This document shows positions 1-63,979 of a stretch of 64,000 bases of DNA, in pieces (the first letter of the stretch is position 1; each line of letters begins with the position of its first letter). The DNA is taken from contig JAFGMO010000055.1 of NCBI GenBank assembly GCA_016927475.1, positions 1 through 64,000 of the forward strand. The letters are read 5' to 3'. A model generated the notes under the pieces. It did not search any database, was not told the origin of the DNA, and was given only the letters and a program-made list of their open reading frames with translations. The translations under genes were made by a program, and so were the position numbers. The stretch is from Candidatus Aminicenantota bacterium (GTDB taxonomy: Bacteria > Acidobacteriota > Aminicenantia > Aminicenantales > Aminicenantaceae).

Positions 1-252
1 CTGTATTATTCACGAGCCAAGCTTGCCGCAGATGTGAGGCGTCAGCCTGTGAAGCTGTGCTTGGCACCGCGAACAGGCTGCAACAAAACAGATGCGGTAA
101 GATCGGTGAGCCCAAAGGGTAAATTTGGCCGATATTTTCTTGAAAACGGTCATGGAAAATGTTTCATTATCAATTTTTTCTAAATTCACCATTAAATGAC
201 ACATGATATTGAAATTATCTGTTGGTGTCGGCCAAATTTATGAATAATGCAG
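1..252 (-). repeat. Structured intergenic repeat element, copy 1
   Basis: Reverse-orientation copy of the dispersed element also seen at 33462, 57191 and 63714. Its ends pair: CTGTATTATTCA at base 1 and TGAATAATGCAG ending at 252. Read on the minus strand it has, in order, the left end, the left-stem motif GGCCGACACCAACAG, a variable A/T-rich loop, CGGCCAAATTTA, and the GC-rich palindromic core with AGCCTGT pairing ACAGGCT around a GTGCCAAGCAC hairpin. The 64-codon ORF on this strand is only the element read through. The left end lies 25 nt upstream of the first PD40 gene, so it occupies that gene's leader or promoter. Confidence 0.85.
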
Positions 253-276
253 ATTAGAATAACAAGGAGAAATCCT

Positions 277-1851
277 ATGAAACGTATCTTAAAGTTCTAT
301 ATCATCACACTTCCAACTATCATCCTGGTTGTATCAGGTTATCAAGGGAAGGATTTTCCTGTTATAAAAGGCCCTTATCTCGGCCTGAAGCCTCCGGGTA
401 AAACACCTGAGATATTCGCTCCCGGGATTATTACTAATCATTACTCACAGAGTTATATCGCTTTTTTGAATGAAGCGAGGGTCTGTGTGTATTCCACAAC
501 CACTGAAAGGGGACATGAAACCTATTATACCTATGAAAAAAATGGGCGCTGGACAGTACCGCAGAGAGCGCCTTTTGAAGAGCTGCAAGGACATCCTAAT
601 TACACAATGGGGCCCCTGGGCCGAAAAGTTTATTACCATTCTGGAAATCCGACGCATCTCGATGATGACAGGCCCGATGACAATATCTGGACCATCGAGT
701 GGACCGGAGCGAATTGGGCAGAACCGATAGCGCTGCCCGAACCCGCCAACTCAGAGTATGGTGAAGCTTATCCTTCGGCAACGAAGGACGGCACGGTCTA
801 TTTTTTCACCTGGCGGAGGCCGGGAACCAGGGGTGATGATATATGGTTCAGCCGCTGTATTAATGGAAATTACCAGGAAGCGGAGCGGCTTCCCTGGCCC
901 ATCAATACGGATTTTATCGAATATGATCCCTACGTTGCACCTGATGAAAGTTTTCTCATTTTCGGTTCGGATCGTCCGGGAGGATATGGAGAAAGCGATA
1001 ATTTTATCTGCTTTCGAAAGGAAGACGGAACCTGGTCATCACCGATTAATCTGGGTCGGCCGTTCAATTCTTCCAGTTGGGACCTTTGCGCCAACGGTAC
1101 CCCCGATGGAAAATATTTCTTTTTCCTCAGCGGAAGAAAAACAAATGTTGACAAAGGCGATATTGGAAAAAAATCCGGCGAAGAACCGGAGGAGGATTCG
1201 GATCTTTACTGGGTTGATTTTTCCTTTATCAATAACCTTAAAAAAGACTTGTTCGACAAAAAGAACGCCGCTGAGATCATCAAACAGGAATACAGGAAGA
1301 ATGGCGTCCAATCCGCCATTGGTACATTGAATAATCTCTACACGAATAAAAAGGACAGTATCTATTTCCCTCCCTTTGAACTTCTGTCTCTCGCAAAAGA
1401 CATGATGGCCGCTGGGAAAATCAAAGACGCCGATCTATTCTTCTCGGCCCTGGATGAAGTGATGCCGAAAGATCTTTCGATTAAAGAAGGATATGCCCGT
1501 CTTTGTGCTTTGAACGGCCATGTTTTCAAAGGTATGAAAATTTTTGAAAAACTGAAGTCCGAAGATCCGAATTTTAATCTCGATGGTGCCTTATCCTCTC
1601 TGGGATATCTCTTCACGCTTTATCCTGGAAAAACCCAGGACGCACTGTCGGTACTGCAGTTCACTGTGGAAAAGTTCCCGGAAGATCCTTGGGCTTATTT
1701 CAGTCTGGCCCGGGTTTACCGACAGCTTGGCGATCTGGAGAAGGCCATCGAAAACTGCCGAAAATCATTAGAGCTCAGACCGGATGTCGGAGATATCTCA
1801 CAACTGCTGGACCGTCTTCTTCAGGAACGGAAAGAAAAAATAAAAAAATAG
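277..1851 (+). CDS. Secreted PD40 beta-propeller protein with C-terminal TPR region
   Basis: Exported protein of 524 aa with an N-terminal hydrophobic signal segment, the family signature GPYLGLKPPGKTPEIFAPG near residue 32, then several PD40 (WD40-like, TolB-type) blades with APDESFLIFGSDRPGG and DGKYFFFLSG motifs to about residue 330. The C-terminal third is helical and ends in a TPR-like unit (WAYFSLARVYRQLGDLEKA). I start at the ATG preceded by AAGGAG, not the upstream ATG at 247, which lies inside the repeat element. It is the first member of a tandem paralogue array and is closest in architecture to the broken gene at 9634. Such propellers usually bind protein or glycan in the periplasm; the ligand is unknown. 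It lacks a lipobox Cys. Confidence 0.8.
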   Translation: MKRILKFYIITLPTIILVVSGYQGKDFPVIKGPYLGLKPPGKTPEIFAPGIITNHYSQSYIAFLNEARVCVYSTTTERGHETYYTYEKNGRWTVPQRAPFEELQGHPNYTMGPLGRKVYYHSGNPTHLDDDRPDDNIWTIEWTGANWAEPIALPEPANSEYGEAYPSATKDGTVYFFTWRRPGTRGDDIWFSRCINGNYQEAERLPWPINTDFIEYDPYVAPDESFLIFGSDRPGGYGESDNFICFRKEDGTWSSPINLGRPFNSSSWDLCANGTPDGKYFFFLSGRKTNVDKGDIGKKSGEEPEEDSDLYWVDFSFINNLKKDLFDKKNAAEIIKQEYRKNGVQSAIGTLNNLYTNKKDSIYFPPFELLSLAKDMMAAGKIKDADLFFSALDEVMPKDLSIKEGYARLCALNGHVFKGMKIFEKLKSEDPNFNLDGALSSLGYLFTLYPGKTQDALSVLQFTVEKFPEDPWAYFSLARVYRQLGDLEKAIENCRKSLELRPDVGDISQLLDRLLQERKEKIKK

Positions 1852-1871
1852 GATTCTTGGTCGACTGGAAC

Positions 1872-1948
1872 TCGGCACCGGGGATTTATTCTGTAAAAGC
1901 TCTGAAATCATTGAAGAAATAAAGATGGATGAGCTGAAAAAGAGATAA
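1872..1948 (+). pseudogene. Remnant of the C-terminus of a PD40 paralogue
   Basis: The gap between the first two PD40 genes translates in one frame as GDLFCKSSEIIEEIKMDELKKR and a TAA. This aligns with the conserved tail of the paralogues (DIYWVDAKIIERIKPEELK in the gene at 7672). No start or propeller blades remain. I read it as the last about 25 codons of a deleted array member. It is short, so the call rests on the match to the family tail. Confidence 0.55.
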
Positions 1949-1951
1949 AAA

Positions 1952-2884
1952 ATGAAACATAGAGAGATTGTTTTTGTTTGGGCATGCCTGGTACTGGTAT
2001 CCATCGGTTTTTCAAAGACAGAAAATTTTCCCGTTCTCAAAGGCCCATATCTTGGTCAGAAGCCGCCGGGTAAAACTCCTGAGATATTTGCTTCCGGGAT
2101 TATTTCCACCGACAAAAGGGAGTTAAATGCTGTTTTTTCTCCAGAAGGTGATGAATTTTACTATGCCGTTTATACTCCCGAGCCGGTTAACAAATGCACC
2201 ATCATGGTTTCCCGGCAGGTCAAGGGTTTTTGGACCAAACCTGAAACGGCTTCTTTTTCCGGAAAGTTCATTGATGTGGATATGGCCTTTTCCCCGGAAG
2301 GGAACCGGTTGTATTTCTGTTCCATCCGGCCTGACCAACCGGGATCGACACCCGGAACAAAGCATGACATCTGGTTTTGCAGCCGGAAAAAGGACAATCA
2401 TTGGTCAGAACCCGTAAAATTGAGCCCATTGATCAATTCTTCGGAGAGCGAGACATACCCTACTTTTACCCGGAAGAGGAGAATGTATTTCGCCGCGATC
2501 CGTAAGGAAGGTATGGGAGGTAAAGATATCTATTATTCTGAGCAAATTAAGGGGAAATTCCTAAAACCGGTAAATATAGGGAATGCCGTTAATACCCGGT
2601 ATGATGAAGGAGATACCTTTGTGGCTCCCGATGAAAGCTACCTGGTCATAAGCTCCAGGGGAAGACCCGACAGCATCGGAGGAAGCGATTTTTATGTCAG
2701 TTTCAAGAGAAAAGACGATCAATGGTCTACTCCAAAAAACATGGGAAAACCGATTAATACTGAAATATATGAATATTGCCCCATGGTTTCTCCTGATGGA
2801 AAATATTTCTTTTTTTCCCGCTTTTCTGAAGGCAAGTCGGATATTTATTGGGTTGATGCCCGTGTTATTGAGGAAATGAAATAA
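1952..2884 (+). CDS. Secreted PD40 beta-propeller protein
   Basis: 310-aa exported propeller protein. It has a signal peptide (about residues 1-21), the signature GPYLGQKPPGKTPEIFASG at about 31-50, then PD40 blades (FSPEGDEFYYA, FSPEGNRLYFCS, VAPDESYLVISS, VSPDGKYFFFS) and the family tail SDIYWVDARVIEEM. The start is the ATG following AAAAAGAGATAAAAA, a weak ribosome site. It has no TPR extension. The next paralogue starts 14 bp downstream, so the two are probably co-transcribed. Function beyond extracytoplasmic binding or scaffold cannot be told from sequence. Confidence 0.85.
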   Translation: MKHREIVFVWACLVLVSIGFSKTENFPVLKGPYLGQKPPGKTPEIFASGIISTDKRELNAVFSPEGDEFYYAVYTPEPVNKCTIMVSRQVKGFWTKPETASFSGKFIDVDMAFSPEGNRLYFCSIRPDQPGSTPGTKHDIWFCSRKKDNHWSEPVKLSPLINSSESETYPTFTRKRRMYFAAIRKEGMGGKDIYYSEQIKGKFLKPVNIGNAVNTRYDEGDTFVAPDESYLVISSRGRPDSIGGSDFYVSFKRKDDQWSTPKNMGKPINTEIYEYCPMVSPDGKYFFFSRFSEGKSDIYWVDARVIEEMK

Positions 2885-2898
2885 AAAGGAAGACTATC

Positions 2899-3774
2899 AT
2901 GAGGTCTAAATCAGTTTTTATAGGGATAGGATTTTTTTTTGTTTTTACACTGAGTGGTTATGCTCAGCAGGAAGATTTTCTTGGTCGTAAAGGTCCCTAT
3001 CTCGGCCAGAAGCCGCCGGGAAAAACACCTGAGCTTTTTGCCCCTGGTATTATGTCCGTCGATAAATACAGCGAATTCGTCTGTATATTCACACCCGGGG
3101 GAGAAGAATGTGTATTTGACCGATACGGTGATGACAAATACCAGAGCGGGGCCGTTTTTTTAACGAGAATACAAAATGGAAAATGGACCAAACCGGAGAT
3201 TCATCCTTTGTTTGCCAAATTTAATGATGTGTTTCTTCCGACCTTATCACCTGACGGGCAGTACTGGTTTTTTACGTCAAAATCCCTGCCCGTACCGGAA
3301 GGAATCAAAAAAATCATCCCCATGTATTTTATGAAAAAAACAAAAGCAGGCTGGACCGACCCGGAATATTTGACTCAGAGTATACATGCTTCCCTAACCT
3401 TGGATGGTACCGTGTACCTCAATTCAGGGCGGGAAATCAAGCTTCACGCAGAGTTTAAAACAATCGTTGATTTATACGGATTGTTTCCTTTCGAAGTCGG
3501 TCATCCCGTGATATCTCCTGACGGCAGTTATCTTATCTTTGATAACAGAAAACTGGCCGGTCAGCGTGAATGCAAGCTGTTTGTCAGCTTTAAAAAGGGC
3601 GAATCCTGGACCGATCCGGTATCTCTGGATAAATTTATCAAGCAACACGCCTTTTGCGCTTGGATCTCCTTTGATGGGAAATATATTTTTTACCATTCCC
3701 TGGACGGTGCCAAAGGCAACATTTACTGGATATCTACCGAGATCATTGAAGAACTAAAATCTGATTTGGAATGA
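2899..3774 (+). CDS. Secreted PD40 beta-propeller protein
   Basis: 291-aa paralogue with signal peptide (GYAQQ cleavage region about 21-24), signature GPYLGQKPPGKTPELFAPG, and PD40 blades that are more diverged than in its neighbours: only LSPDGQYWFFTSK and ISPDGSYLIFDNR are clear. The tail is NIYWISTEIIEELK. AAAAGGAAG precedes the ATG at a normal distance. It sits third in the same-strand array and overlaps the upstream reading frame of the next gene by 4 bp, although the true start of that gene is about 60 bp further on. Confidence 0.83.
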   Translation: MRSKSVFIGIGFFFVFTLSGYAQQEDFLGRKGPYLGQKPPGKTPELFAPGIMSVDKYSEFVCIFTPGGEECVFDRYGDDKYQSGAVFLTRIQNGKWTKPEIHPLFAKFNDVFLPTLSPDGQYWFFTSKSLPVPEGIKKIIPMYFMKKTKAGWTDPEYLTQSIHASLTLDGTVYLNSGREIKLHAEFKTIVDLYGLFPFEVGHPVISPDGSYLIFDNRKLAGQRECKLFVSFKKGESWTDPVSLDKFIKQHAFCAWISFDGKYIFYHSLDGAKGNIYWISTEIIEELKSDLE

Positions 3775-3833
3775 AGAAAGGATTCAGGTGGAGTGCAAGA
3801 AATATTTTTTTCATTAAAAAGGAGGATCAAATC

Positions 3834-4703
3834 ATGTCAAAGAGAATAACACTTTCTACGCTTTTTATTGCTTTCTCTTTAACGTTCACCGGCTTTGCTG
3901 CAGATGGAAAAGGTCTTGGTTTGGAACAGAGGATTAAACTAAAGTGGGCTACAAAAAATCTGTTAAAAAACCCTGAATCCGTACTCTATGATAAATTCCG
4001 TAATATATGTTATGTGGCGAACATCAACGGACAATCGACGGAAAAAGACGGGAACGGATTCATTTCAAAACTGGGATTGAACGGCGAAATTGTAACTCTC
4101 AAATGGATTACCGGACTGAATGCACCCAAAGGCATGGGGGTGTTCCAAGAAAAACTTTTCGTTACAGACATCGACCGTGTGGTTGAGATCGATATCGAAA
4201 AGGATAAAATTGTGGATGAATATTCCTCACCTAAGGCACAATTCCTGAATGATATATCCGTGCATGCATCGGGAACGGTCTATGTTTCCGACAATATCGC
4301 TAATCACATTTTTAGACTGGAAAACGGCATTCTGGAATTATGGCTGACATCAACGGATTTAAAGGAACCCAACGGTTTATATGCTGAAGAGCACCGCCTT
4401 CTCATTGGGATCAATAATGCGATTCTAAGCGCGGATTACGGAACGAATAAGGTCGAGCGGTTTATCAAGAATACGGATTATGTCGATGGGCTTGCTTCGA
4501 TGGGAAATGGAAGATATCTTGTTTCGGATTTTTTGGGTAAGATTCAAATGGTTCGGCAAGGACAAAAAAGAATAAAAATCATCGATACCTCAGCGGAAAA
4601 AATCATGGCAGCCGATATTGACTTTGTGATTGAAAAAAGACTCCTTCTGGTTCCAACCTTCATGAATAACAGGGTGATGGCTTACGAAATAATTGATGAG
4701 TGA
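3834..4703 (+). CDS. SMP-30/NHL-like secreted beta-propeller protein
   Basis: 289-aa protein with a signal peptide (MSKRITLSTLFIAFSLTFTGFAA) followed by a six-bladed propeller of the SMP-30/gluconolactonase or NHL type: NPESVLYDKFRNICYVANI, FISKLGLNGEI, APKGMGV, LFVTDIDRVVEID, FLNDISVHASGTVYVSD, LKEPNGLYAEEHRLLIG. It is not a PD40 paralogue and lacks the GPYLG signature. The start is the ATG after AAAAAGGAGGATCAAATC; the ORF-track start at 3771 adds 21 residues without a ribosome site. Enzymatic activity is not assured. It may simply be a binding propeller within this surface-protein cluster. Confidence 0.75.
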   Translation: MSKRITLSTLFIAFSLTFTGFAADGKGLGLEQRIKLKWATKNLLKNPESVLYDKFRNICYVANINGQSTEKDGNGFISKLGLNGEIVTLKWITGLNAPKGMGVFQEKLFVTDIDRVVEIDIEKDKIVDEYSSPKAQFLNDISVHASGTVYVSDNIANHIFRLENGILELWLTSTDLKEPNGLYAEEHRLLIGINNAILSADYGTNKVERFIKNTDYVDGLASMGNGRYLVSDFLGKIQMVRQGQKRIKIIDTSAEKIMAADIDFVIEKRLLLVPTFMNNRVMAYEIIDE

Positions 4704-4819
4704 AAGAGACAAAGTATGAGCAAAGTCAAATAGATATCAATGGAAAAGAAGTATATGAATAGAATCAAAACACTGATATTGCTAAAATCCTGGAAAGGAG
4801 GTTCGACAAAAAAAAATTT

Positions 4820-5344
4820 TTGTCTGAGTTTTTCCTTGAATTTCTCATAATATTTCTGGTCGCCGCAGGTATGAATGTCAGGGCGGAAGAGGCGTCCGAT
4901 TATGAGGCTGTGAAAAAAAGTATTGAGCAGACGATCGGGTGGGCCATTGAAAAGGATTTCGAAGCCATGTTCCGCTTGTGGGCCGATAACATGTTTCATT
5001 TTTGGCTTTTTTCCGACAGTCGGATCGTCGGCCTGGATAATTTTAAGAAATACTCTGAAAGATGGAAAGATCCGGATTTTCGTGGAACCCGTTACGAGTT
5101 CAAGGACCTGCGTATTGCGTTCTCCCGTTCCGGGGATGTGGCCTGGTATTCCTGCTTTCTTGATGACTGTGGTTCCTATAAAGGCAAGGAGACGTGGTTG
5201 AAAGACGTATTCCAGACCGGTGTTCTGGAGAAGAGGGACGGCCAATGGGTCCATGTGCAGATTCACGGATCCTATCCGGTCGACAAAATTTCCGAGAATT
5301 ATGTGAGGCATTTTTATTCGGATCTCTTGGAGAAAAAGGATTAG
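4820..5344 (+). CDS. SnoaL/NTF2-like domain exported protein (start uncertain)
   Basis: 174-aa ORF with an N-terminal hydrophobic stretch ending near VRAEEA, then a cone-shaped NTF2/SnoaL-type domain: a helical AVKKSIEQTIGWAIEKDFEAMFRLW segment, strands around DLRIAFSRSGDVAWYS and a basic VFQTGVLEKRDGQWVHVQIHGS. Members are often ketosteroid-isomerase-like or binding proteins. The start is odd. TTG at 4820 lies 18 nt after an AGGAGG, and an ATG-led frame (MNRIKTLILLK) runs into a nine-A tract in another frame. A one-base homopolymer slip there would join a normal positively charged signal peptide to this domain. That slip is an inference. Confidence 0.6.
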   Translation: MSEFFLEFLIIFLVAAGMNVRAEEASDYEAVKKSIEQTIGWAIEKDFEAMFRLWADNMFHFWLFSDSRIVGLDNFKKYSERWKDPDFRGTRYEFKDLRIAFSRSGDVAWYSCFLDDCGSYKGKETWLKDVFQTGVLEKRDGQWVHVQIHGSYPVDKISENYVRHFYSDLLEKKD

Positions 5345-5478
5345 AGATTATAAATATCAGTGATCCCAGCCGTATTATCCCCGTTGGGCAATATAAAAGC
5401 GATGGAGGGGGATGGGGAGTTGATGTCATTGAAAACATAAGTTATCTTGCAAGTCCTCGCAACTGGATCGAAGTTTGA
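5338..5478 (+). pseudogene. LVIVP-repeat protein fragment
   Basis: In frame from 5338 the sequence reads GLEIINISDPSRIIPVGQY followed by GWGVDVIENISYLA and stops at 5478. This is one LVIVP beta-propeller repeat (the GLxIIDISDPSxPxxVGxY / AxGVxVxGNYAYVA pattern). There is no start codon and no second repeat. It overlaps the end of the SnoaL-like gene by 7 bp. I read it as the leftover of a lost or never-complete LVIVP gene in the decaying propeller array. Confidence 0.6.
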
Positions 5479-5520
5479 GTTTCGAATAGGGGGCCGAGGA
5501 GGTAAACTTAATGATTTAAA

Positions 5521-6520
5521 ATGGTTAAATATGTATCGGTATGTTTTGTATGGATTTTGATGATGGGCTGTACAAAAAAGGCTGATTGTCCAGATCTCTC
5601 AGGTCCTTATCTGGGACAAAAACCTCCGGGTAAAACACCCGAATTATTTGCTCCCGGAATTGTTTCAAAAGGTTATGCTGAATATCAAATAGCATTCACT
5701 CCCAACGGAAAGGAGCTTTATCTCTGGTTGGGTGAGAACAAACCTTATTGCCTTATCCTCTGGATGAGTGAGGAAAACGGCAGATGGAAATCTTTTCAGG
5801 TTTGCCCATTCTCAGGAAAATATGTGGATATGAAATTTTCACTTTCTCCGGACGGGAAAAGCTTTTTATTTTCTTCAAACAGGCCGCATTTGACGAGCGG
5901 AGAACCTGCAGATCATTTGGATATCTGGTTTATGGAGAGGAGCTCAGGTGTTTGGGGTAAACCGATACGGTTTGGTCCCGCTGTGAATTCGAACAATCAT
6001 GATTATTATCCGAGTATGGCCGGGAACGGGAATGTGTACTTCATGTCCGATCGCGATGGAGGAATAGGAGAGGACGATATTTATGTTTCATACTTCAAGG
6101 ATGGGAAGCTGACAAAAGCAGAGAATATCGGCCCTACGATCAATACGGTCCTCAATGAAGGAGATCCGTTTATCGCTCTTGATGAAGGATATCTTATCTT
6201 TTGCAGCCGTGACCGTGTGGAGGGATTCGGCAACAATGACCTGTATATCAGTTAGAAGGCCGGATGGCTCCTGGACAGGGGCTGTGAATATGGGAGAAAC
6301 GATCAACACCCAGTCGGAAGAAGTCTGTCCCGTGGTGACTCACGATAGAAAATAATTCTTTTTTTCGAGCGACAGGAAAAAATTCAAATCCATACCTGAA
6401 ACACCTCTGACCTACGAACAAATCGTATCGGATCTGGCGGGACCGGGGAACGGAAGGAATGACATGTACTGGGTTGATGCCGGAATCATAGATCAACTGA
6501 AACCGAATGATTTAAAATAA
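5521..6520 (+). pseudogene. Broken PD40 propeller lipoprotein (frameshift plus nonsense codon)
   Basis: The first 244 codons encode a lipoprotein-like leader (LMMGCTKK), the signature GPYLGQKPPGKTPELFAPG and PD40 blades, stopping after NNDLYIS. The missing part continues in another frame: RRPDGSWTGAVNMGETINT, then HDRK followed by TAA, then FFFSSDRKKFKS, LTYEQIVSDLAGPGNG, DMYWVDAGIIDQLKPNDLK and a final TAA at 6520. The intact paralogue at 7672 shows that AGTTTT became AGTT (the frameshift) and that the TAT of DGKYFFF became TAA. The frameshift is in a short T run and could be a read error. The nonsense change is a clean substitution, so I call it a pseudogene. Confidence 0.85.
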
Positions 6521-6547
6521 GATAGAGAAATAAAGGAGAAAAACAAA

Positions 6548-7612
6548 ATGATTAAAAGATCTATCTTCCTCGTTATCTTAGGGTTTGGTTGTTTCTATTC
6601 AGGTCTCATAGCTGAAAAAACTCCGCTTAACCTCAAAGTGAGAAAAATCTCAGACCGGATCATGATCATTGAAACCGAATAGGGGGCTGCGTCTCAATTG
6701 GTTGTGGCGTCTAAAAAAGGTTTGGTGGTTTTTGGTTCTCATTTTTCCTTAAGTGCTGCAGAAGAGTATATTGAAGCTATAAAAAAGGAGTTGGGGAGAG
6801 ACGACATCATTTATCTGATAAACAATTCATCCCGGGCTATAAAATGCGGAGGGAATGCGGCCTATAGCCGAGCAAAAATCATTGCCAGAGAAGATGTGTT
6901 TGAAGAAATGAACAAAGACAAACAAGAACTGTATGTGGAAATAGAAAGAGAGATAGCAGGATGGAAAAATAAAATCGAGGTGACAGAAAAGCGCTTGAAA
7001 ACATTAGAAGCCGGCTCCCAAGAAGCGAAAATGAATCTGGACTGGCTTTTGTATTGTAAGAGGTTGGTTTATGATTTAACCCATGAAGAGTATCAGCGAG
7101 TACTTCCGGAACTGACATACAATGATAAAATTTCACTGCATTTAGGCGATATTTCTTTAGAAATTAACCATTTTGGCTTTACCCTGATCCCTGAAGAGGG
7201 ATTGTTATTTGCCGCCAATTTTTTTAATCCGGCCCATTTTTCAAATTACACAAAATTTGCATCCGAAGAGGGAATAGATGTTCCCGGCATGCTCAAAATG
7301 CTGGATGAAGTATTTGCAGAGGGGCATCAAATAAAAACTGTTTATTCGGGATTTGCAGGTGTTATGCCTTTGAATGAAGTGTTCATCCGTATCGATTACT
7401 TTAAAAAACTCTGGCAGGATGTTTTAGAGGCAGATTCCCAAGGACTTACTCTAGATGAAACCCTTCAGGCCCTTTCTTTAAATAATAAATTTGCTTGGAT
7501 TAAAGATTGGAAGATGTACCGGAATGCAGGGCATGATTGGGTTAATGATGAACATGAGCATAATATAAGACTCTTCTGGAATTCCATCGATTCTGAGAAA
7601 ATGATTCATTGA
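6548..7612 (+). pseudogene. Metallo-beta-lactamase-fold remnant with amber stop and lost metal site
   Basis: Starts after AAAGGAG with a signal peptide (MIKRSIFLVILGFGC) and LKVRKISDRIMIIETE, then a TAG at 6680-6682. The same frame stays open for about 310 more codons: ASQLVVASKKGLVVFGS, YLINNSSRAIKCGGNAAYS, SRAKIIAREDVFEEM and so on to 7612. The layout matches MBL-fold proteins (VISDRIW..., NTHxHxDHxGGN, AxIIxHE). Here the HxHxDH metal motif is replaced by NSSRAIKCGGN, so metal binding is lost as well. The ORF track shows only the part after the stop, from a TTG. A translated fragment from 6698 cannot be excluded, but it would lack export and metal sites. Confidence 0.75.
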
Positions 7613-7671
7613 ACATTAAGACAGATATTTTCTAACAAAGCAAAAAAGGCAGGGCTAAGGGAGCTATCAAT

Positions 7672-8652
7672 ATGAAAAAAATAATAATAGCTTTTTGTCT
7701 GTTTGCGTTTATGGCCGTCATTTCATATTCGCAGGAAAAGAATTTTCCGGAACTCAAAGGTCCTTATCTCGGCCAGAAACCGCCGGGCAAAAAACCGGAG
7801 ATATTCGCTCCGGGGATTGTATCAACCGGATTTCCCGAACTGTTCATCTATTTCACACCTGATGCAAAGGAAGTGTATTTTCAATTGTGGAAGGTTCCTT
7901 TCCCGGTCATTATTTATATGAAAGAAAAAAACGGACAGTGGACAAAACCCGCTGTTGCTCCTTTTTCAGGAAGATATTTTGCCAAATTCTGTTTATCGCC
8001 GGATGGCAATACCATCGTTTTGACGTCCAGCGAACCGCGGTCGGGCCGAGGAGAACCGACAAAAAAATACACGACCAGGATAATGAAGCGTACCAAAAAC
8101 GGATGGAGCGATCCGGTATTTATCGAACAAACATGCGGCGCTTTGGCTCCTTCCATTTCATCACAAGGAAATTTATATTTCTTTTTTGAGGTTTCTCTTC
8201 CCGACAAATCGGATATCTATGTATCCAAATATAAGGATGGCGCTTACGAATCTCCTGTTCGACTCAGTGATTCGGTTAATTCGGAATTTTATGAAGTGGA
8301 TCCTTTTATCGCGCCGGACGAAAGTTATCTAATCTTTTGCAGAGACGGAGATGGATTTGGATCAACCGATTTGTTCATCAGTTTTAGAAAGGAAGATGGT
8401 TCCTGGTCCAAGGCCAAAAATATGGGAGAAAACATCAATTCAGCTGGTATCGATCTGTGTCCGAGTATCTCCCCGGATGGAAAGTATTTTTTCTTCTCCA
8501 GTGACCGAAATGATCATAAATCTTATTCGAGGATGCCTCTAACCTATGAACAAAAAATCGAAATACTGAGCAGCCCGGGGAACGGATTATCGGATATTTA
8601 CTGGGTGGATGCGAAGATCATCGAAAGAATAAAACCGGAAGAATTGAAGTAA
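7672..8652 (+). CDS. Secreted PD40 beta-propeller protein
   Basis: 326-aa intact paralogue and the best reference for the array. It has a signal peptide ending near SYSQEK, the signature GPYLGQKPPGKKPEIFAPG, then blades FTPDAKEVYFQ, LSPDGNTIVLTSS, IAPDESYLIFC, DLFISFRKEDGSWSKAKN and ISPDGKYFFFSSDRND. A LTYEQKIEIL...PGNGLSDIYWVDAKIIE tail is shared with the broken gene at 5521. AAGGGAG lies 9 nt before the ATG. The next gene follows after 13 bp. Role unknown beyond an extracytoplasmic propeller. Confidence 0.87.
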   Translation: MKKIIIAFCLFAFMAVISYSQEKNFPELKGPYLGQKPPGKKPEIFAPGIVSTGFPELFIYFTPDAKEVYFQLWKVPFPVIIYMKEKNGQWTKPAVAPFSGRYFAKFCLSPDGNTIVLTSSEPRSGRGEPTKKYTTRIMKRTKNGWSDPVFIEQTCGALAPSISSQGNLYFFFEVSLPDKSDIYVSKYKDGAYESPVRLSDSVNSEFYEVDPFIAPDESYLIFCRDGDGFGSTDLFISFRKEDGSWSKAKNMGENINSAGIDLCPSISPDGKYFFFSSDRNDHKSYSRMPLTYEQKIEILSSPGNGLSDIYWVDAKIIERIKPEELK

Positions 8653-8665
8653 AAAGGAGAACACC

Positions 8666-9637
8666 ATGAAACATAAAGCGGTATTTTTAGGCCTTGGATT
8701 TTTTATTATTTTAATGATGGGCAGTAATGCCCAGCAGGAAAACATCCCTGTTCTCGAAACCCCCTTTTCGAGCCTGAAATCACACGTAATGACACATGAG
8801 ATTTATGCGTCGGGAAATGGACAAGGCACCAATCGAGAAAAGGGAAAAATCGTTTTCTGTTCGGACCGGGACGGCAACAGTGAAATTTACGTGATGAAAG
8901 AGGATGAGGCTGAACAGCGTCGCTTAACAAACAATAATAGCTTTGATGGATATGCGAAATTTTCTTTAGACGGAAAACTGATTGTTTTTCTTTCGGATAG
9001 AAGCGGATCCTATGAAATTTTTATCATGAATTCGGATGGGGCTGATGTGCGGCAAGTCACCTCTTCCATGCCCTATGTCCATTTTCCATCGTTTTCATCG
9101 GATGGTACAAAACTTATTTTCAATTCCAGGGAGAAAGGGGAAACGGTCTTTTTGATCTTGAACCTGTCCGATGGAGCCGCGACAAGGTATTTACCCGGCA
9201 GAACCAATGTCTATCATCCGGCCTGGTCGCCCCTGGGGGATAAAATCGCCTTTGATATCGCAGCGGATAACAATCAGGATATCTATGTTGCCAACACTGA
9301 TGGCAGTAGACTCCTACGGCTGACGGATAATCTCAAGTCGGATTTTTACCCGGCGTGGTCGCCGGATGGAAAACAAATCGCTTTTCAAAGCGGAAGGAAT
9401 CATAATCTGGATATCTGTGTGATGAAAGCGGATGGAAGCCAAAAAAAATACATCACCGAACATAGAGCACTGGATGAATTTCCATCTTGGGGACCGGATA
9501 ACAAACATATTGTTTTTGAATCGAGAAGAACCGGGAAGAAGCAGATCTTCACCATCCGCTCGGATGGAACGGGTCTGAGGCAGATTACCTTCGGTGATTA
9601 CAATAATTCTCATCCGGATTGGAGTAAAGAGCTGTGA
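8666..9637 (+). CDS. Secreted TolB-like beta-propeller protein
   Basis: 323-aa exported protein with signal peptide (about 1-22) and six regular TolB-type repeats of the form IVFCSDRDGNSEIYVM, KLIVFLSDRSGSYEIFIMN, KIAFDIAADNNQDIYVANTDGS, QIAFQSGRNHNLDICVM and HIVFESRRTGKKQIFTI. Its repeats are the canonical TolB/PD40 pattern, unlike the looser blades of its neighbours. The N-terminus (VLETPFSSLKSH...THEIYASG) still resembles a decayed GPYLGQKPPGKTPEIFAPG leader. AAAAGGAG precedes the ATG. The stop overlaps the GTG start of the next gene by 4 bp, so the two are translationally coupled. Confidence 0.85.
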   Translation: MKHKAVFLGLGFFIILMMGSNAQQENIPVLETPFSSLKSHVMTHEIYASGNGQGTNREKGKIVFCSDRDGNSEIYVMKEDEAEQRRLTNNNSFDGYAKFSLDGKLIVFLSDRSGSYEIFIMNSDGADVRQVTSSMPYVHFPSFSSDGTKLIFNSREKGETVFLILNLSDGAATRYLPGRTNVYHPAWSPLGDKIAFDIAADNNQDIYVANTDGSRLLRLTDNLKSDFYPAWSPDGKQIAFQSGRNHNLDICVMKADGSQKKYITEHRALDEFPSWGPDNKHIVFESRRTGKKQIFTIRSDGTGLRQITFGDYNNSHPDWSKEL

Positions 9638-11173
9638 AAAAATATTTTCTCTTATTTTTAATGTTGCTTTTTATATTTGTCTTTTCTATATCTGCAAAGC
9701 AGAAAAAATGGCCGGATCTCAAAAGAGCTTATTTCGGCCAGAAGTCTCCGGGGGAGAATCCGGAACTTTTTATGTTCGGGCTGATAACGACTCTGGATGT
9801 AGAATACTGCATCTCATTTCTGGATCAGGGCAGAGTGTGTGTTTTTGGACGCGACGATATCGGAGTCCAATATACATATTTAAAGGACGGCCGGTGGACG
9901 GAACCTCAAAAACTGCCGTTCGATACGGCCATAGAAGAGTGGAAGCACAATACCGGGCCGGATGATAGAACTCTTTATTTCATGTCCCCCCGTCCGGTCG
10001 GCACCAACGACACTTTTAATGACATGAATATTTATAAAATGGAATGGACGGGATCGGGATGGACCGAGCCGGCGATACTGCCGTTCCTCCCAACTCCGAG
10101 AAATTTCATGAAATCTATACATCCGTTTCATCCGATGGATCGGCCTATTTCCACGGCGGGACATTCAGAAATAAGCCGGATATGAATGACGATATATACC
10201 GAAGCCGGTGCGTGAACGGCGTTGTCCAGGATCAGGAAAGGCTCGAGGAGCCGATCAACACTTCTTATGGCGAATATGACGCCTTTGTGGCTCCCGATGA
10301 TACCTCATGTTCGGCTCAGACCGGCCGGGGGGATACGGCCGGTACGATAGTTATATATGTTTTAAAAAAGAGGATGGAACCTGGTCGCATCCGATGAACA
10401 TGGGAGACAAACTCAATTCCATACGCTGGGAAAACCGGCTGATGGTCACAAGCGATGGAAAATATATGTTTTTTGTCAGCGGCCGCCGGCACGAACTTCT
10501 TAACGATGAATTGGAAAACGGAAGGTACACGAGTGTGACCGGTTTTTACTGGGTCGATGCCGCATTTATTCAAGAACTGAAAAAAAGAATGCTGGGCAGT
10601 TTATGTGCCGCAGAAATCGTATCCAAGGAATATGAAAAATACGGTGTTGAAGCAGCCGTTTGCAAGCTGACGGAGTTGATGTCTGAAGCAGGGGACAGCT
10701 GTCATTTCTCCTATTTTGAACTTTTGATGATATGCCGGGAGATGATTAGGGAAGATAAAATCGACGATGCGGATATATTTTACCAAGCCCTGCTGGATAC
10801 GCTGGAGGAAGACTTCCGGACAACACACGGCTACGGAATGATCTGCATGAAGCACGGCCGCATCTCAAAGGGTTGGAAACTGATGAAAAAGGCCCTGTCT
10901 GAATACCCTGTTGAATTGACGGTGGCTGTCTATATATTGGGAAGTGAACTTCTTAGAATGTCCAGAACGGAAGAAGCCCTGGAAATTATGCGGCTCAATG
11001 CGGGTGAATTTCCCGGCCATTATTTATCGCATTTTGGACTGGCCAGGGCTTATGAAAAGCTTGGGAATGTTGAGCGGGCCATAAAAATCTGCGAAGAAGC
11101 GCTTCAACTCTGCCCTGATTATCATCCCGCGGAAGATTTATTAGATCATTTGAAAAAAAGACTTAACCAGTAA
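9634..11173 (+). pseudogene. Broken PD40 + TPR propeller gene (two frameshifts)
   Basis: Three overlapping frames together rebuild a protein like the one at 277. Frame 1 (GTG start, signal peptide, AYFGQKSPGENPELFMFG) ends its homology near 10085. Frame 2 carries SEKFHEIYTSVSSDGSAYF...EPINTSYGEYDAFVAPDD. Frame 3 (MFGSDRPGGYGRYDSYICF to LKKRLNQ) carries the last blades and the TPR region (LARAYEKLGNVERAIKICEEAL). The first slip is explained by one lost T before CCTCCC. The second needs about 4 missing bases between APDDT and MFGSDRP. Both relative to 277-1851, which has LPEPANSE and APDESFLIFGSD at these places. Confidence 0.82.
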
Positions 11174-33450: not shown

Positions 33451-33461
33451 CGTTTATCTAT

Positions 33462-33688
33462 CCTGCATTATTCATAAATTTGGCCGACACCAACAGATAA
33501 TTTAAATAGTATATGTCATTTAAAAGAATTCTATGGCAACATTGATAATGAAACATCGGCCAAATTTACCTTTCAGGTAAGCCAATCTTACCGCATCTGC
33601 TTTGTTGCAGCCTGTTCGAGGTGCCAAGCACAGCTTCACAGGCTGACGCCTCCCATCTGCGGCAAGCTTGGTTTGTGAATAATACAGG
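33462..33688 (+). repeat. Structured intergenic repeat element, copy 2
   Basis: Full copy, forward orientation. Ends CCTGCATTATTCA and TGAATAATACAGG pair. Left stem AAATTTGGCCGA pairs perfectly with TCGGCCAAATTT. The GC-rich core follows: CTTACCGCA with TGCGGCAAG, AGCCTGT with ACAGGCT, and apical GTGCCAAGCAC. It is most similar to copy 1, including the loop GACACCAACAGATAATTT. It lies between a padR gene and the permease gene it normally precedes directly, so it interrupts or has become part of that operon. Confidence 0.87.
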
Positions 33689-33740
33689 CTATGAATGACA
33701 ACTTCCGCAAACATAAGAATAACTTCAAACTTTGTCATCT

Positions 33741-54965: not shown

Positions 54966-57194
54966 ATGAAAAAAGTCCTGACTGCCCTTCTGTGCATGGT
55001 TTTTATTTCTGCTCCGGTGTTTTCTCAGGCTGGAAACAAGATAAAAGGAACCGTTTTTAACGCGGAAGGAAAACCTCTTCCTGGTGTCAGGGTGGAGATC
55101 TTAGATACCCCCCTTTCAACCGATACTTTAATAGATGGCAGCTTCAACTTGAACAAACCAGAGAAGGGAAAAATCGTACTTCGCTTCACCCATCCGGATT
55201 ATGAAGAGCATGAAATGACGGTGGATTCGGGAATCAGACAAACGCAATATATCACCGTACAGCTTGTGCCCAAAAATCCCATGTTTCTGACTATAAAAGA
55301 GGAGATTACCGTTACCGCCAAAGCGGATTCCATTATCGACATCTCCCTTCCTTCCCATAAAACAATTCTGCCGGGAAGTGTGCTGACGGAGATGGGAACT
55401 TCCAATGTTGCCGATTCCGTGGATAAGGTTCCCGGAGTAGCAGCCATCGGAAAAGGGGGTTACTCCATGTCGCCTGCCGTACGGGGACTGGCTGAACACC
55501 GGGTGCTGCTTCTGATGGACGGAGTCAGGATTACTTCCGAAAGACGGGTCGGGGCCAGCGCCTCATTTATCAGCCTGAACGATATCGACCGGATCGAGGT
55601 CAACCGGGGGCCCTATTCCGTTTTTTATGGATCCGGTGCCGTGGCGGGGATCGTTAATGTGATCACCAAAACACCTCCTCCCGGATCTCCTTTTCAGGGA
55701 AGCGCCCAGATTTCTTACAATACGGCCAGGGAGGAGAAAGCCGGTTCGTTGAATATAGGAGGTTCCTGGGGAAAGACCGGGTACATGCTTGATATCAACG
55801 GAAAAAAGGCCGAAGATTACTCATCTCCCGAAGGCGTTGTCGAACAGTCACGGTATTCTGATGTTAATCTCCTTTTCAAGTTGAACAGGGGAGATATGGA
55901 TTCACGGTTGAACCTGACTTTTTTCCATTACAGCGGTATGGATATCGGAAAACCGAGCCCCACGGCTAGACTCAAACCGCGCTGGTATCCCCATGAAGGA
56001 AATACTTTGTTGACATTAGGTTATGAAGCAAGAAATAAGCTTTTTCTGGATACGCTGAGTGCCAGTGCTTATGTTTTTCGAAGCTCCCTGGAAACAAAAA
56101 AAGAAAACCTTAGAGAAGATTTGTCCGTGAAAAAGAGGAATCTGGCCGAAATTGAAGGCTTGAATTTCGGTTTCAAACTGAGGGCCGGGAAGGCACTGGG
56201 AAAACATCAAACGCTCAGCTTCGGATTCGATTTTTTCGGCCGTGACGGTATCAATGACAGCAATACGGAATGGGAAATTGATGAAGCCGGTGTCATAACC
56301 AGCGAGATTCAAGAAACATCTCTTAATGATGCCCGCCGGTCAAATTTTGGGGTGTATGTTGATGATAAAATTCAAGCCTTGTCACAACTCTCCTTCAATG
56401 TCGGTGTCCGCTTTGATTCCATTCATACGGCAAACAGGATGATCCCCGGGGAATCCTATCTTTCTCGGGGAGATGAATCTCTCAGCGCTTATGTCGGGGC
56501 GGTTTTAAATATAACGCCCCGGCTTTCCCTGTTGGCCAATGCCGGCCGGTCTTTTCGCTTTCCATCCGTCAGCGAGCTTTTTTACAGCGGTTTGACCGGA
56601 AGGGGAACCGTTTTCGGTAATCCGGACCTGGATCCTGAAAAAAGCTTGAACCTGGATACGGGCTTTCGGTATCTGCATGAAAGGTTTTATGCTTCCATCT
56701 ACGGTTTCAGCAACACGGTCAGCGATTTTATCGAAAAATACCAAGGGGAGACGGAGGAAGAATATTATTACAGGAACCTGATAGAAGGAAGGATCAAAGG
56801 CCTCGAAGGGGAATTCTATTTTGCCCTGCTGAAAAATGTTGAACTTTTTGTTAATTTCCATCTTATGGAGGGACGTGAAAAAGAAACGGATAATCCGCTT
56901 AACTATATTCCTCCATCACGGATAACTTTTTGGGGAAAATACTCACATAAGTTCTTCTGGTTTGAGCCGAAGCTTACCTTGACATCTGCAAAAAAAGATC
57001 CCGGGCCCCTCGAACAGGAAATCGACGGCAGTGTTGTTCTTGATACTATTCTGGGACTTTCCATCCACAAGGATATCACTATGATGATTATCTTCCAGAA
57101 CCTTCTCAACCAGACCTATTTTTCTTCAGCCGATAAAGAGGGAGTTCTGGCTCCTGGGCGGGGAGTGGTGTTGAAAGTACTGTACAGATTTTAA
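54966..57194 (+). CDS. TonB-dependent outer-membrane receptor
   Basis: 742-aa receptor with signal peptide (1-about 21), a carboxypeptidase-regulatory-like domain (IKGTVFNAEGKPLPGVRVEI), plug domain (VADSVDKVPGVAAIGKGGY, VRGLAEHRVLLLMDGVRI, NRGPYSVFYGSGAVAGIVNVI) and a 22-strand type barrel ending LKVLYRF with the terminal aromatic residue for barrel insertion. RSFRFPSVSELFYSG and NPDLDPEKSLNLDTG are typical vitamin B12/siderophore/colicin-type receptor motifs. The ligand is unknown. Its TAA stop lies in the left end of repeat copy 3. Confidence 0.93.
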   Translation: MKKVLTALLCMVFISAPVFSQAGNKIKGTVFNAEGKPLPGVRVEILDTPLSTDTLIDGSFNLNKPEKGKIVLRFTHPDYEEHEMTVDSGIRQTQYITVQLVPKNPMFLTIKEEITVTAKADSIIDISLPSHKTILPGSVLTEMGTSNVADSVDKVPGVAAIGKGGYSMSPAVRGLAEHRVLLLMDGVRITSERRVGASASFISLNDIDRIEVNRGPYSVFYGSGAVAGIVNVITKTPPPGSPFQGSAQISYNTAREEKAGSLNIGGSWGKTGYMLDINGKKAEDYSSPEGVVEQSRYSDVNLLFKLNRGDMDSRLNLTFFHYSGMDIGKPSPTARLKPRWYPHEGNTLLTLGYEARNKLFLDTLSASAYVFRSSLETKKENLREDLSVKKRNLAEIEGLNFGFKLRAGKALGKHQTLSFGFDFFGRDGINDSNTEWEIDEAGVITSEIQETSLNDARRSNFGVYVDDKIQALSQLSFNVGVRFDSIHTANRMIPGESYLSRGDESLSAYVGAVLNITPRLSLLANAGRSFRFPSVSELFYSGLTGRGTVFGNPDLDPEKSLNLDTGFRYLHERFYASIYGFSNTVSDFIEKYQGETEEEYYYRNLIEGRIKGLEGEFYFALLKNVELFVNFHLMEGREKETDNPLNYIPPSRITFWGKYSHKFFWFEPKLTLTSAKKDPGPLEQEIDGSVVLDTILGLSIHKDITMMIIFQNLLNQTYFSSADKEGVLAPGRGVVLKVLYRF

Positions 57195-57460
57195 CCTGCA
57201 TCATTCATAAAAATTGCCGATCATACATATATTTTTTTATGTTTGGAGACCATTTGAGTAATATAAAACAATAAATGAATAGTGATCGAGTAGGTGCAAT
57301 AAGGAGTGTTCTTAAACTAAATATCGGCATTTTTTACTCTACGAGCGAGCCGATCTTACCGCATCTGCTTCGTTGCGCCCCGTTCGCGGTGCCAAGCACA
57401 GCTTCACAGACCGACGCCTCGCATCTACGGCAAGCTTGACTCGTGAATGATGCATGTTAA
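57191..57460 (+). repeat. Structured intergenic repeat element, copy 3
   Basis: Full copy starting on the stop codon of the receptor gene. Ends TTAACCTGCATCATTCA and TGAATGATGCATGTTAA pair, left stem TTGCCGAT pairs with ATCGGCA, and the core (GATCTTACCGCATCTGC ... GCATCTACGGCAAGC) surrounds the GTGCCAAGCAC hairpin. Its A/T-rich loop differs completely from copies 1 and 2. Confidence 0.88.
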
Positions 57461-57538
57461 CCTGCATCATTCATAAAAATTGCCGATCATACATATATTT
57501 TTTTATGTTTGGAGACCATTTGAGTAATATAAAGCAAT
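57457..57538 (+). repeat. Direct repeat of the left arm of copy 3
   Basis: The first 77 bp of copy 3 (TTAACCTGCATCATTCATAA and onward) recur without a mismatch directly after its right end, and similarity stops abruptly near CAATGAGGG. The core does not follow. This is a second, truncated element start lying in the leader of the small exported-protein gene. Confidence 0.9.
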
Positions 57539-57599
57539 GAGGGAACTTTTTAGAAAAAAAAACGTTTATATTATAAATTACATACAAGAGGAGGTTCGT

Positions 57600-62266: not shown

Positions 62267-62451
62267 AATATCTTTCTCCTTATGACATGCTTCTCACTCA
62301 TACTATCAGATTTTGGTTGGAGATGCCAAATCCAGCGCCGAAGATAATCCTGACTGGAATTTCTGAAGGACTTCTTGTAGAATAACCTCACCATCATAGG
62401 CACGGTCCATTCAAAAAAACTTGCGGTATGGGGCAAGATGGAGTTTTGATT

Positions 62452-63717
62452 ATGAAAGGTGTCCATTATCAGGGACTGGGAGACCTGTCCCGGCACGACG
62501 TCGTAAGTATGGCTGTAAGACCGTATTCTCCCGGCGAGAATTATCAAACGGAAGACGGCCTCCTCATCCATTTGACGGTAACGGGAAGATGTTATGCCCG
62601 GTGCAAGGGTTGTATTAACACTGCCGTCACCCTTGGTTCCGACCTTCCGCGAAGCGATCTGGACATTTTCCAGGAAACCGCGCCCGAGAGGGATTGTGAG
62701 ATCATTCTTGGACTTACCCGCCGACATCCTCAAAAAACAATGACGTTGTGTTTTTATGGAGGCGAACCGTTTCTCTGCATCGAAAAAATGGTGGAAGTCT
62801 GGAAAAGGCTTAAAGACACCGACGAAGCGGAAAGAATTCGTTTTCTCGTTTATACAAACGGAGAGAAAATATCAGAGAACCTCCAGCGTTACCATGATTT
62901 TATGAAGGATATCTGGCTTTATTCCATATCTATCGATGGAGATGAAAAACAGCACAACAGCATACGGCTTGGAACCCGTTTGTCACGTATTCACAAAAAT
63001 TTGGATGACCTTTCCGGCTTTTATTCGGGTTATGTTCTTCACTGGTCAACTCTACGTGAGGAGCAATCGTTGAAAATTTGTTTTGATGAATTTATGAGGC
63101 TTTACGAACGGGGATGGGTTAACCAAATATTTTGGCATTGGGCAGAGAGCCGGGAATCCTTTATTGAGTTTTCGCGTTATGCGGAAAGATACGGAAAAGA
63201 ATTGGAAGAGATCATGAATGCCTACGTGAATGAGCTTCAAAAAGGACGGCTTCTCCCCATCATTCACATCAATGAGCTTGTTTTATACCTTATCTCAGGC
63301 CGTTCGAGGGGACATACAGCCTGCGGTGTCGAGATGAAAAAAAATTACGATGTCGTTTCCGGTGAAGTTTTTCCCTGTGCTGACCTGCCTTCATCCCATT
63401 CCATCGGAGGCCTCGATAAAAACGGAAAACTTAAACTCAAGGAATATGATTTAAAATCTCTTGTTGCCTACAAGGTCGACCTGGGCTGCGGCGACTGCGG
63501 TGTTCACGCTTACTGCGGCGGACGATGTCCTGTTCAGGTTTTGGCCGGCTCAATGGAGCGAACCCTGCAGTACTGTCAGCTTATGCGCCTTCATGTCGGG
63601 ATCGTCCAGCAGCATATCGAAAAGATTATTGAGAGTTTTCACGCACACGGGATAACGCTTCAAGATGTTTACGACCGGTCGGGCTTTTTGGCGAAGTATA
63701 CGGACGTCGTCCCTTAA
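62452..63717 (+). CDS. Radical SAM/SPASM-domain protein
   Basis: 421-aa protein with cluster motif VTGRCYARCKGCIN (CxxxCxxC), TLCFYGGEPFLCIEKM, SISIDGDEKQHNSIR and a SPASM-like C-terminus (VDLGCGDCGVHAYCGGRCPVQ plus CQL). The spacing fits peptide- or protein-modifying radical SAM enzymes. No precursor peptide was found next to it. I prefer the ATG at 62452, 8 nt after GGAG; the track start at 62428 is 8 codons earlier. Divergent from the NifX-like gene. Its TAA stop is the first base group of repeat copy 4. Confidence 0.83.
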   Translation: MKGVHYQGLGDLSRHDVVSMAVRPYSPGENYQTEDGLLIHLTVTGRCYARCKGCINTAVTLGSDLPRSDLDIFQETAPERDCEIILGLTRRHPQKTMTLCFYGGEPFLCIEKMVEVWKRLKDTDEAERIRFLVYTNGEKISENLQRYHDFMKDIWLYSISIDGDEKQHNSIRLGTRLSRIHKNLDDLSGFYSGYVLHWSTLREEQSLKICFDEFMRLYERGWVNQIFWHWAESRESFIEFSRYAERYGKELEEIMNAYVNELQKGRLLPIIHINELVLYLISGRSRGHTACGVEMKKNYDVVSGEVFPCADLPSSHSIGGLDKNGKLKLKEYDLKSLVAYKVDLGCGDCGVHAYCGGRCPVQVLAGSMERTLQYCQLMRLHVGIVQQHIEKIIESFHAHGITLQDVYDRSGFLAKYTDVVP

Positions 63718-63979
63718 CGTGGTCATTCATAAAAAATGCCGGCAACAGCAATTTATTTTGTCTTAAGCTCGATATGAAAATAGGGATCGTGGATGAAAAA
63801 AATGTGTCATCTATCAAAAAATAGACAGAATTTAGATTTTATGCCGGCATTTTTTACCCTGCGGGCGAGCCGATCTTACCGCATCTGCTTCGTTGCGTCG
63901 TGCTCGCGGTGCGGAGCACAGCTTCGCACGACGACGCCTTGCATCTACGGTAAGCTTGGCTCGTGAATAACCACGTTAA
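63714..63979 (+). repeat. Structured intergenic repeat element, copy 4
   Basis: Full copy starting on the stop codon of the radical SAM gene. Ends TTAACGTGGT and ACCACGTTAA pair perfectly, then ATTCA/TGAAT. Left stem AAAAAATGCCGGC pairs with GCCGGCATTTTTT, and core GTCGTGC pairs with GCACGAC around GTGCGGAGCAC. All three stems differ in sequence from copies 1 and 2 yet still pair. This is the clearest case of covariation. Confidence 0.88.

Follow-up and report, generated by a model that had tools for sequence, protein, structure and literature searches.

A mobile miniature element in the Aminicenantes carries a covarying hairpin that recurs in several bacterial phyla

The window analysed here, a stretch of 64,000 nucleotides at the start of a contig of Candidatus Aminicenantota bacterium, contains an intergenic repeat that a preliminary description had placed at 63714-63979, as one of four full copies whose sequences differ while their base pairing is kept. 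What kind of element is this, does it move, and what maintains its fold? All four reported copies (starting at 1, 33462, 57191 and 63714) are real, and the complementary ends, the left stem, a small middle hairpin and the core hairpin are present. From left to right, the element of ~230-265 bp consists of a left terminal repeat, the stem P2 with an A/T-rich loop, the mini-hairpin P3, the core hairpin P4 and a right terminal repeat, and the two ends pair to form P1. The reported copy spans exactly 258 bp (63718-63975) with TTAA on either side; the outermost TTAA at both ends is the target duplication, so 63714-63979 overstates the element. The gene at 62428-63717 lies directly before this copy, and its TAA stop codon (63715-63717) is part of the left TTAA. 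The features of the window are as follows.

63718..63975, + strand: full element, copy 4, the reported copy (cmsearch 158.8 bits for the right part; fold z -8.3; TTAA flanks)
63714..63717: target-site duplication TTAA, left of copy 4 (sequence, ORF)
63976..63979: target-site duplication TTAA, right of copy 4 (sequence)
63718..63729, + strand: left terminal repeat, P1 5' arm, CGTGGTCATTCA, pairs with 63964-63975
63964..63975, + strand: right terminal repeat, P1 3' arm, TGAATAACCACG, pairs with 63718-63729 (fold)
63730..63743, + strand: left stem P2, 5' arm, TAAAAAATGCCGGC, pairs with 63843-63856
63744..63842, + strand: A/T-rich variable loop of P2 (fold)
63843..63856, + strand: left stem P2, 3' arm, GCCGGCATTTTTTA (fold)
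63857..63865, + strand: mini-hairpin P3, CCCTGCGGG, third pair changing jointly between C-G and T-A (pair counts)
63866..63963, + strand: core hairpin P4, ~98 nt, common to several phyla (cross-phylum alignment, pair counts)
63897..63903, + strand: covarying 7-bp stem H4, 5' arm GTCGTGC (pair counts, alignment)
63926..63932, + strand: covarying 7-bp stem H4, 3' arm GCACGAC (pair counts, alignment)
63909..63919, + strand: apical hairpin GTGC-GGA-GCAC (fold; last two pairs covary between genera)
57195..57456, + strand: full element, copy 3 (cmsearch 145.8 bits; ORF, sequence)
57461..57545, + strand: partial second copy, a neighbour element's left end and the start of P2, right after TTAA (repeat search)
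33462..33688, + strand: full element, copy 2 (cmsearch 148.4 bits; sequence)
1..253, - strand: copy 1, in reverse orientation, right end lost at the contig start (cmsearch 141.8 bits; 3' end missing)

Copy 3 is likewise flanked by TTAA (57191-57194 and 57457-57460), and its left TTAA lies at the stop codon that ends the gene at 54966-57194. Copy 2 lies between two CTAT motifs (33458-33461 and 33689-33692), which form a true direct repeat because CTAT is not palindromic. P3 follows the pattern CCCTnnGGG. The window also holds a tandem array of ~8 related genes (247-11173) with recurring similarity of 40-111 nt; these share the motif G-P-Y-L-G-Q-K-P-P-G near the start and 'GSDRPGG', and are apparently paralogous secreted proteins.

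The preliminary description had proposed that all copies be collected and a covariance model built. Our model R1, built from 29 copies of the window's genome (5 Mb, 104 contigs), gave 133 matches there, of which ~110 were complete or almost complete, and found the element in relatives as well. Matches occurred in 22 of the 41 genomes drawn as relatives (the window's genome counted), all of the same family, and the element is present in most genera of that family. A wider draw from the phylum added two carriers from another family within the order, and most other genomes had no matches. Among the relatives, G003, G006 and G021 are Candidatus Aminicenantes MAGs (JAUVXM, DAOUYU and JAUWNW records); G006 holds 51 copies and G008 at least 78. 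A left-end pattern matched 171 times, compared with 0 for the reversed control, and these matches include relatives without P4. The latter, seen in the window's genome, are palindromes of ~160 bp composed of a left end, P2 and an inverted left end (for example, L231, L235, L238 and L246), and still shorter, internally deleted forms occur beside them. Many contigs of the window's genome start or stop inside a copy (for example, C7, C45, C75, C76, C8 and C15), so the element interrupts short-read assemblies and the true copy number is probably higher.

Mobility is demonstrated by sites that are occupied in one species and vacant in its sister. G003 and G021 are collinear and ~95% identical, and two element-bearing intervals of G003 are empty in G021. 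At the first, TTAA is duplicated (G021 ATTTAATGTAAGG; G003 TTTAA, the element, then TTAAAAGG); at the second, CTAT is duplicated around the G003 element. These sites show insertion, or precise loss, after the two species diverged. Moreover, the 4-nt flanks are identical in 27 of 96 copies of the window's genome, 13 of them non-palindromic (shuffles: mean 5.8, maximum 14). Genome G336 has such flanks at 12 of its 20 copies (shuffles: mean 2.7, maximum 8). The preferred target is YTAR, duplicated as 4-bp direct repeats. Many copies in G336 have identical model scores, indicating recent spread. A joined-flank search for empty sites among the retrieved loci returned no clean one and mostly tandem partial copies, and one polymorphic interval (L200) was too rearranged to read.

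In the window's genome, 27 of the 96 scored copies begin, with their left end, immediately behind the upstream gene's stop codon, and only 3 have the right end at a stop codon, a strong bias that simple symmetric insertion does not predict. The corresponding counts in G336 are four left and four right. The targets YTAA and YTAG are at the same time stop codons, and insertions are common both there and at intergenic sites. Insertion at a stop codon would be followed by restoration of that codon through the duplication, and the gene would thereby survive. About 30 copies have a partial second left end behind them, and where the spacing is intact it consists of the same 4-nt target (CTAG in L154, TTAA in L068, and TTAA at 57457-57460 of the window). 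We had considered this second left end as a part of the element and dropped the idea once L154 displayed the order CTAG, left end to right end, CTAG, second left end. Since the same 4-nt target is reused, the tandem partial copies most plausibly reflect successive insertions into a single site, the older copy decaying.

The fold of the element is strong and its stems change jointly. The copy at 63718-63975 folds with z = -8.3 as RNA and -7.5 as DNA, and 0 shuffles were as stable. Within the window's genome, P1 arms from the same copy form 11.3 of 13 pairs, versus 10.0 when arms are swapped between copies (z 15); the arms of H4 form 6.5 versus 3.5 of 7 pairs (z 12), and those of P3 2.6 versus 2.1 of 3 pairs. 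P4 comprises the freely varying 7-bp H4, an apical hairpin and conserved mismatches. We aligned 36 P4 sequences from Aminicenantes, Acidobacteriota, Bacteroidetes, Desulfobacterota, Nitrospirota, Kiritimatiellales and one unassigned MAG. In this alignment, 26 of the 38 pairs vary at both positions and 86% of cells pair; the covariation score is 0.407, versus 0.132 for shuffled alignments and at most 0.106 with slid partners, all raw values with phylogeny not corrected for. Most sequences from non-relatives were fetched by a pattern spanning part of the 5' arm, so the conservation of that arm is by construction. The 3' arm (ACAGCTTC, CGCCTnGCATCTG) lies outside the retrieval pattern and is nevertheless conserved, and the covarying stems are outside the pattern or left free by it.

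The arm-swap test within the genome and the alignment across phyla thus bear out the coordinated stem change first noticed between the four copies. One of the examples then given has to be withdrawn, because the two apices (GTGCCAAGCAC and GTGCGGAGCAC) differ in the loop only; covariation of the apical stem is, however, seen when genera are compared (columns 59-60 with 67-68 of the P4 alignment). The short 'SYRICF...' ORF that had been likened to repeat ORFs of other phyla is a mere translation of P4, and its frame is not kept between copies because a 1-nt bulge and the loop length (3-6 nt) vary.

P4 is also multi-copy in genomes traced from its loci and labelled as other groups: 40 and 31 copies in two Bacteroidetes MAGs, 67 in one Nitrospirota MAG, 109 in one Acidobacteriota MAG, 20 in a Desulfobacterales MAG and 18 in a Desulfosarcina MAG. 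Bin_338 has at least 150, and three further genomes have 1-2. The Bacteroidetes carriers have the ends GGGCYTACTGAAAAA and 6-bp duplications (TAGTTA, CAAGTA, TAATTA). Given these other ends and this other duplication length, P4 looks like a portable module whose carriers should need different transposases. Mis-binning is possible for single contigs but is an unlikely source of tens of copies whose ends are specific to their lineage. A lone P4 between direct repeats of ~50 nt in Pseudodesulfovibrio (L201, ~7080-7224) has a setting unlike all others. Neither the element nor P4 matched an Rfam 15 family at gathering score, searches of viral contigs, phages and plasmids gave no hit to the element, and we found no description of it among open-access papers. 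The initial picture of a dispersed, structured, mobile and widespread family outside Rfam is thus supported.

What moves the element? A YTAR target with a 4-bp duplication is typical of IS5-group and IS701-family insertion sequences. However, the window's genome lacks a DDE_5 gene, and its few DDE_Tnp_1 genes (three loci) do not carry these ends, with the proviso that an assembly of 104 contigs may miss a parent. PDDEXK_2 was absent from 12 of 13 genomes tested, and the families examined (DDE_5, DDE_Tnp_1, Y1_Tnp and PDDEXK_2) yielded no mobilising enzyme. In the window's genome, neither the copies with an unlocated left end nor the solitary left ends included an autonomous form enclosing a gene, and nothing beyond ordinary paralogue families recurred among the genes beside copies. 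It is also unlikely that the copies are plain decayed ends of a known transposon, the alternative initially envisaged: the resident transposases that were checked lack these ends, and P4 covaries across phyla.

Having no gene of its own and no detected transposase partner, the element works like a MITE. It is short and gene-less, with the inverted ends of P1, target duplications and empty sites. We therefore favour a non-autonomous MITE-type element in which P4 is a cis-acting foldback and the enzyme acts in trans, a reading to which we give an even chance of being correct. The terminal repeats would supply the enzyme-specific recognition, the transposase would be provided in trans, and P4 would have to fold for efficient mobilisation, for instance as an extruded DNA hairpin to which the mobilising enzyme or some widespread host factor binds. 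This role of P4 in mobility is one that we infer purely from its retention, and the copies composed of left end, P2 and inverted left end suggest that P4 may not be strictly needed. In addition, a true MITE should share its ends with an enzyme-coding element, and none was identified among the families checked.

Alternatively, P4 may act as RNA, with transcripts folding into P1-P4 to control transposition or mRNA ends (termination, RNase sites). The strong RNA fold, the covariation and the frequent position of copies right behind stop codons, where their top strand extends the message (27 versus 3 in the window's genome), are consistent with this, and RNA effects of ERIC and NEMIS provide a precedent (PMC2229807). 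However, G336 has no orientation preference at stop codons, Rfam offers no match, and H4 exhibits no wobble bias: among its distinct alleles, a single G-T occurs 8 times versus 10 for a single A-C, and among its cells A-C outnumbers G-T by 65 to 27. We consider an RNA role possible but unlikely. Since A-C is as frequent as G-T among the single-step intermediates of H4, and a top-strand RNA should favour G-U, a DNA hairpin is slightly preferred over RNA for P4.

Joint change of paired arms need not reflect selection, and the earlier conclusion that it does is not proven, because hairpin template switching could also homogenise the arms. Palindromes are known to be corrected in this way, one arm being copied onto the other, and P4 would then be a passive part of an ordinary MITE. 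Covarying alleles that differ by several pairs together (GATGGAC versus AGCCTGT) fit such correction. However, fixed mismatches flank the changing stem in all phyla, including a TC/TC internal loop, a T-G pair (at 42/87) and a G-A by the apex, and the core is conserved in sequence too, even in 3' parts outside the retrieval pattern. Because correction should erase such mismatches, their survival speaks against it as the main cause of the joint change, although it could account for part of it; as a full explanation without selection we find it rather improbable.

Finally, a REP/REPIN-like element moved as single-stranded DNA by a Y1 (RAYT/IS200-type) transposase, an enzyme that the preliminary description had proposed to look for, agrees with the extragenic, high-copy, mismatched hairpins and with the Y1_Tnp genes in most genomes of the family, but is highly implausible for an element of ~260 bp rather than 20-40 bp with target duplications, which are not expected from Y1 transposition, and with a copy number independent of Y1_Tnp (no Y1 gene was detected in G006 and G008, both rich in copies, and the two Y1 genes of G002 go with 0 copies, all three being incomplete MAGs).

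Several known systems resemble this family in part. Correia/NEMIS, RUP, ERIC and YPAL are bacterial MITEs each tied to one genus or related group, and the 155-bp Correia form has an internal module missing from the 107-bp form (PMC2229807). Like them, the present element is small, gene-less and intergenic, with inverted ends, target duplications, long stem-loops and tens to hundreds of copies; unlike them, its covarying hairpin is common to carriers with different ends, duplication lengths and phyla. REPs are 20-40 bp long with a GTAG or CGTC tag, some families occur in several phyla, and CGTC-type REPs have no known transposase (PMC3733652, PMC3116915). Both groups are high-copy extragenic hairpins, whereas the element described here is ~230-265 bp and has terminal repeats, target duplications and no Y1 link. 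Thiomargarita nelsonii contains MITEs that are high-copy hairpins with no parent element identified, one of them inside a group I intron, and a second MITE linked to the PD-(D/E)XK family (PMC4853749). In contrast to our element, these have TATA-type ends, belong to a single lineage and have no reported cross-phylum module.

Taken together, we identified an abundant family (>100 copies in several genomes) that is absent from Rfam and for which sister genomes provide both filled and empty sites. We tentatively propose, at clearly less than an even chance, that P4 represents a new class of shape-recognised mobility hairpin, DNA or RNA, which unrelated miniature transposons carry in several phyla and on which either different transposases or a single shared factor would act. 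In the usual view, miniature elements need only the end sequences read by their transposase. A covarying hairpin that is kept across different ends, duplications and phyla suggests an unrecognised structural need or a shared mobility factor.
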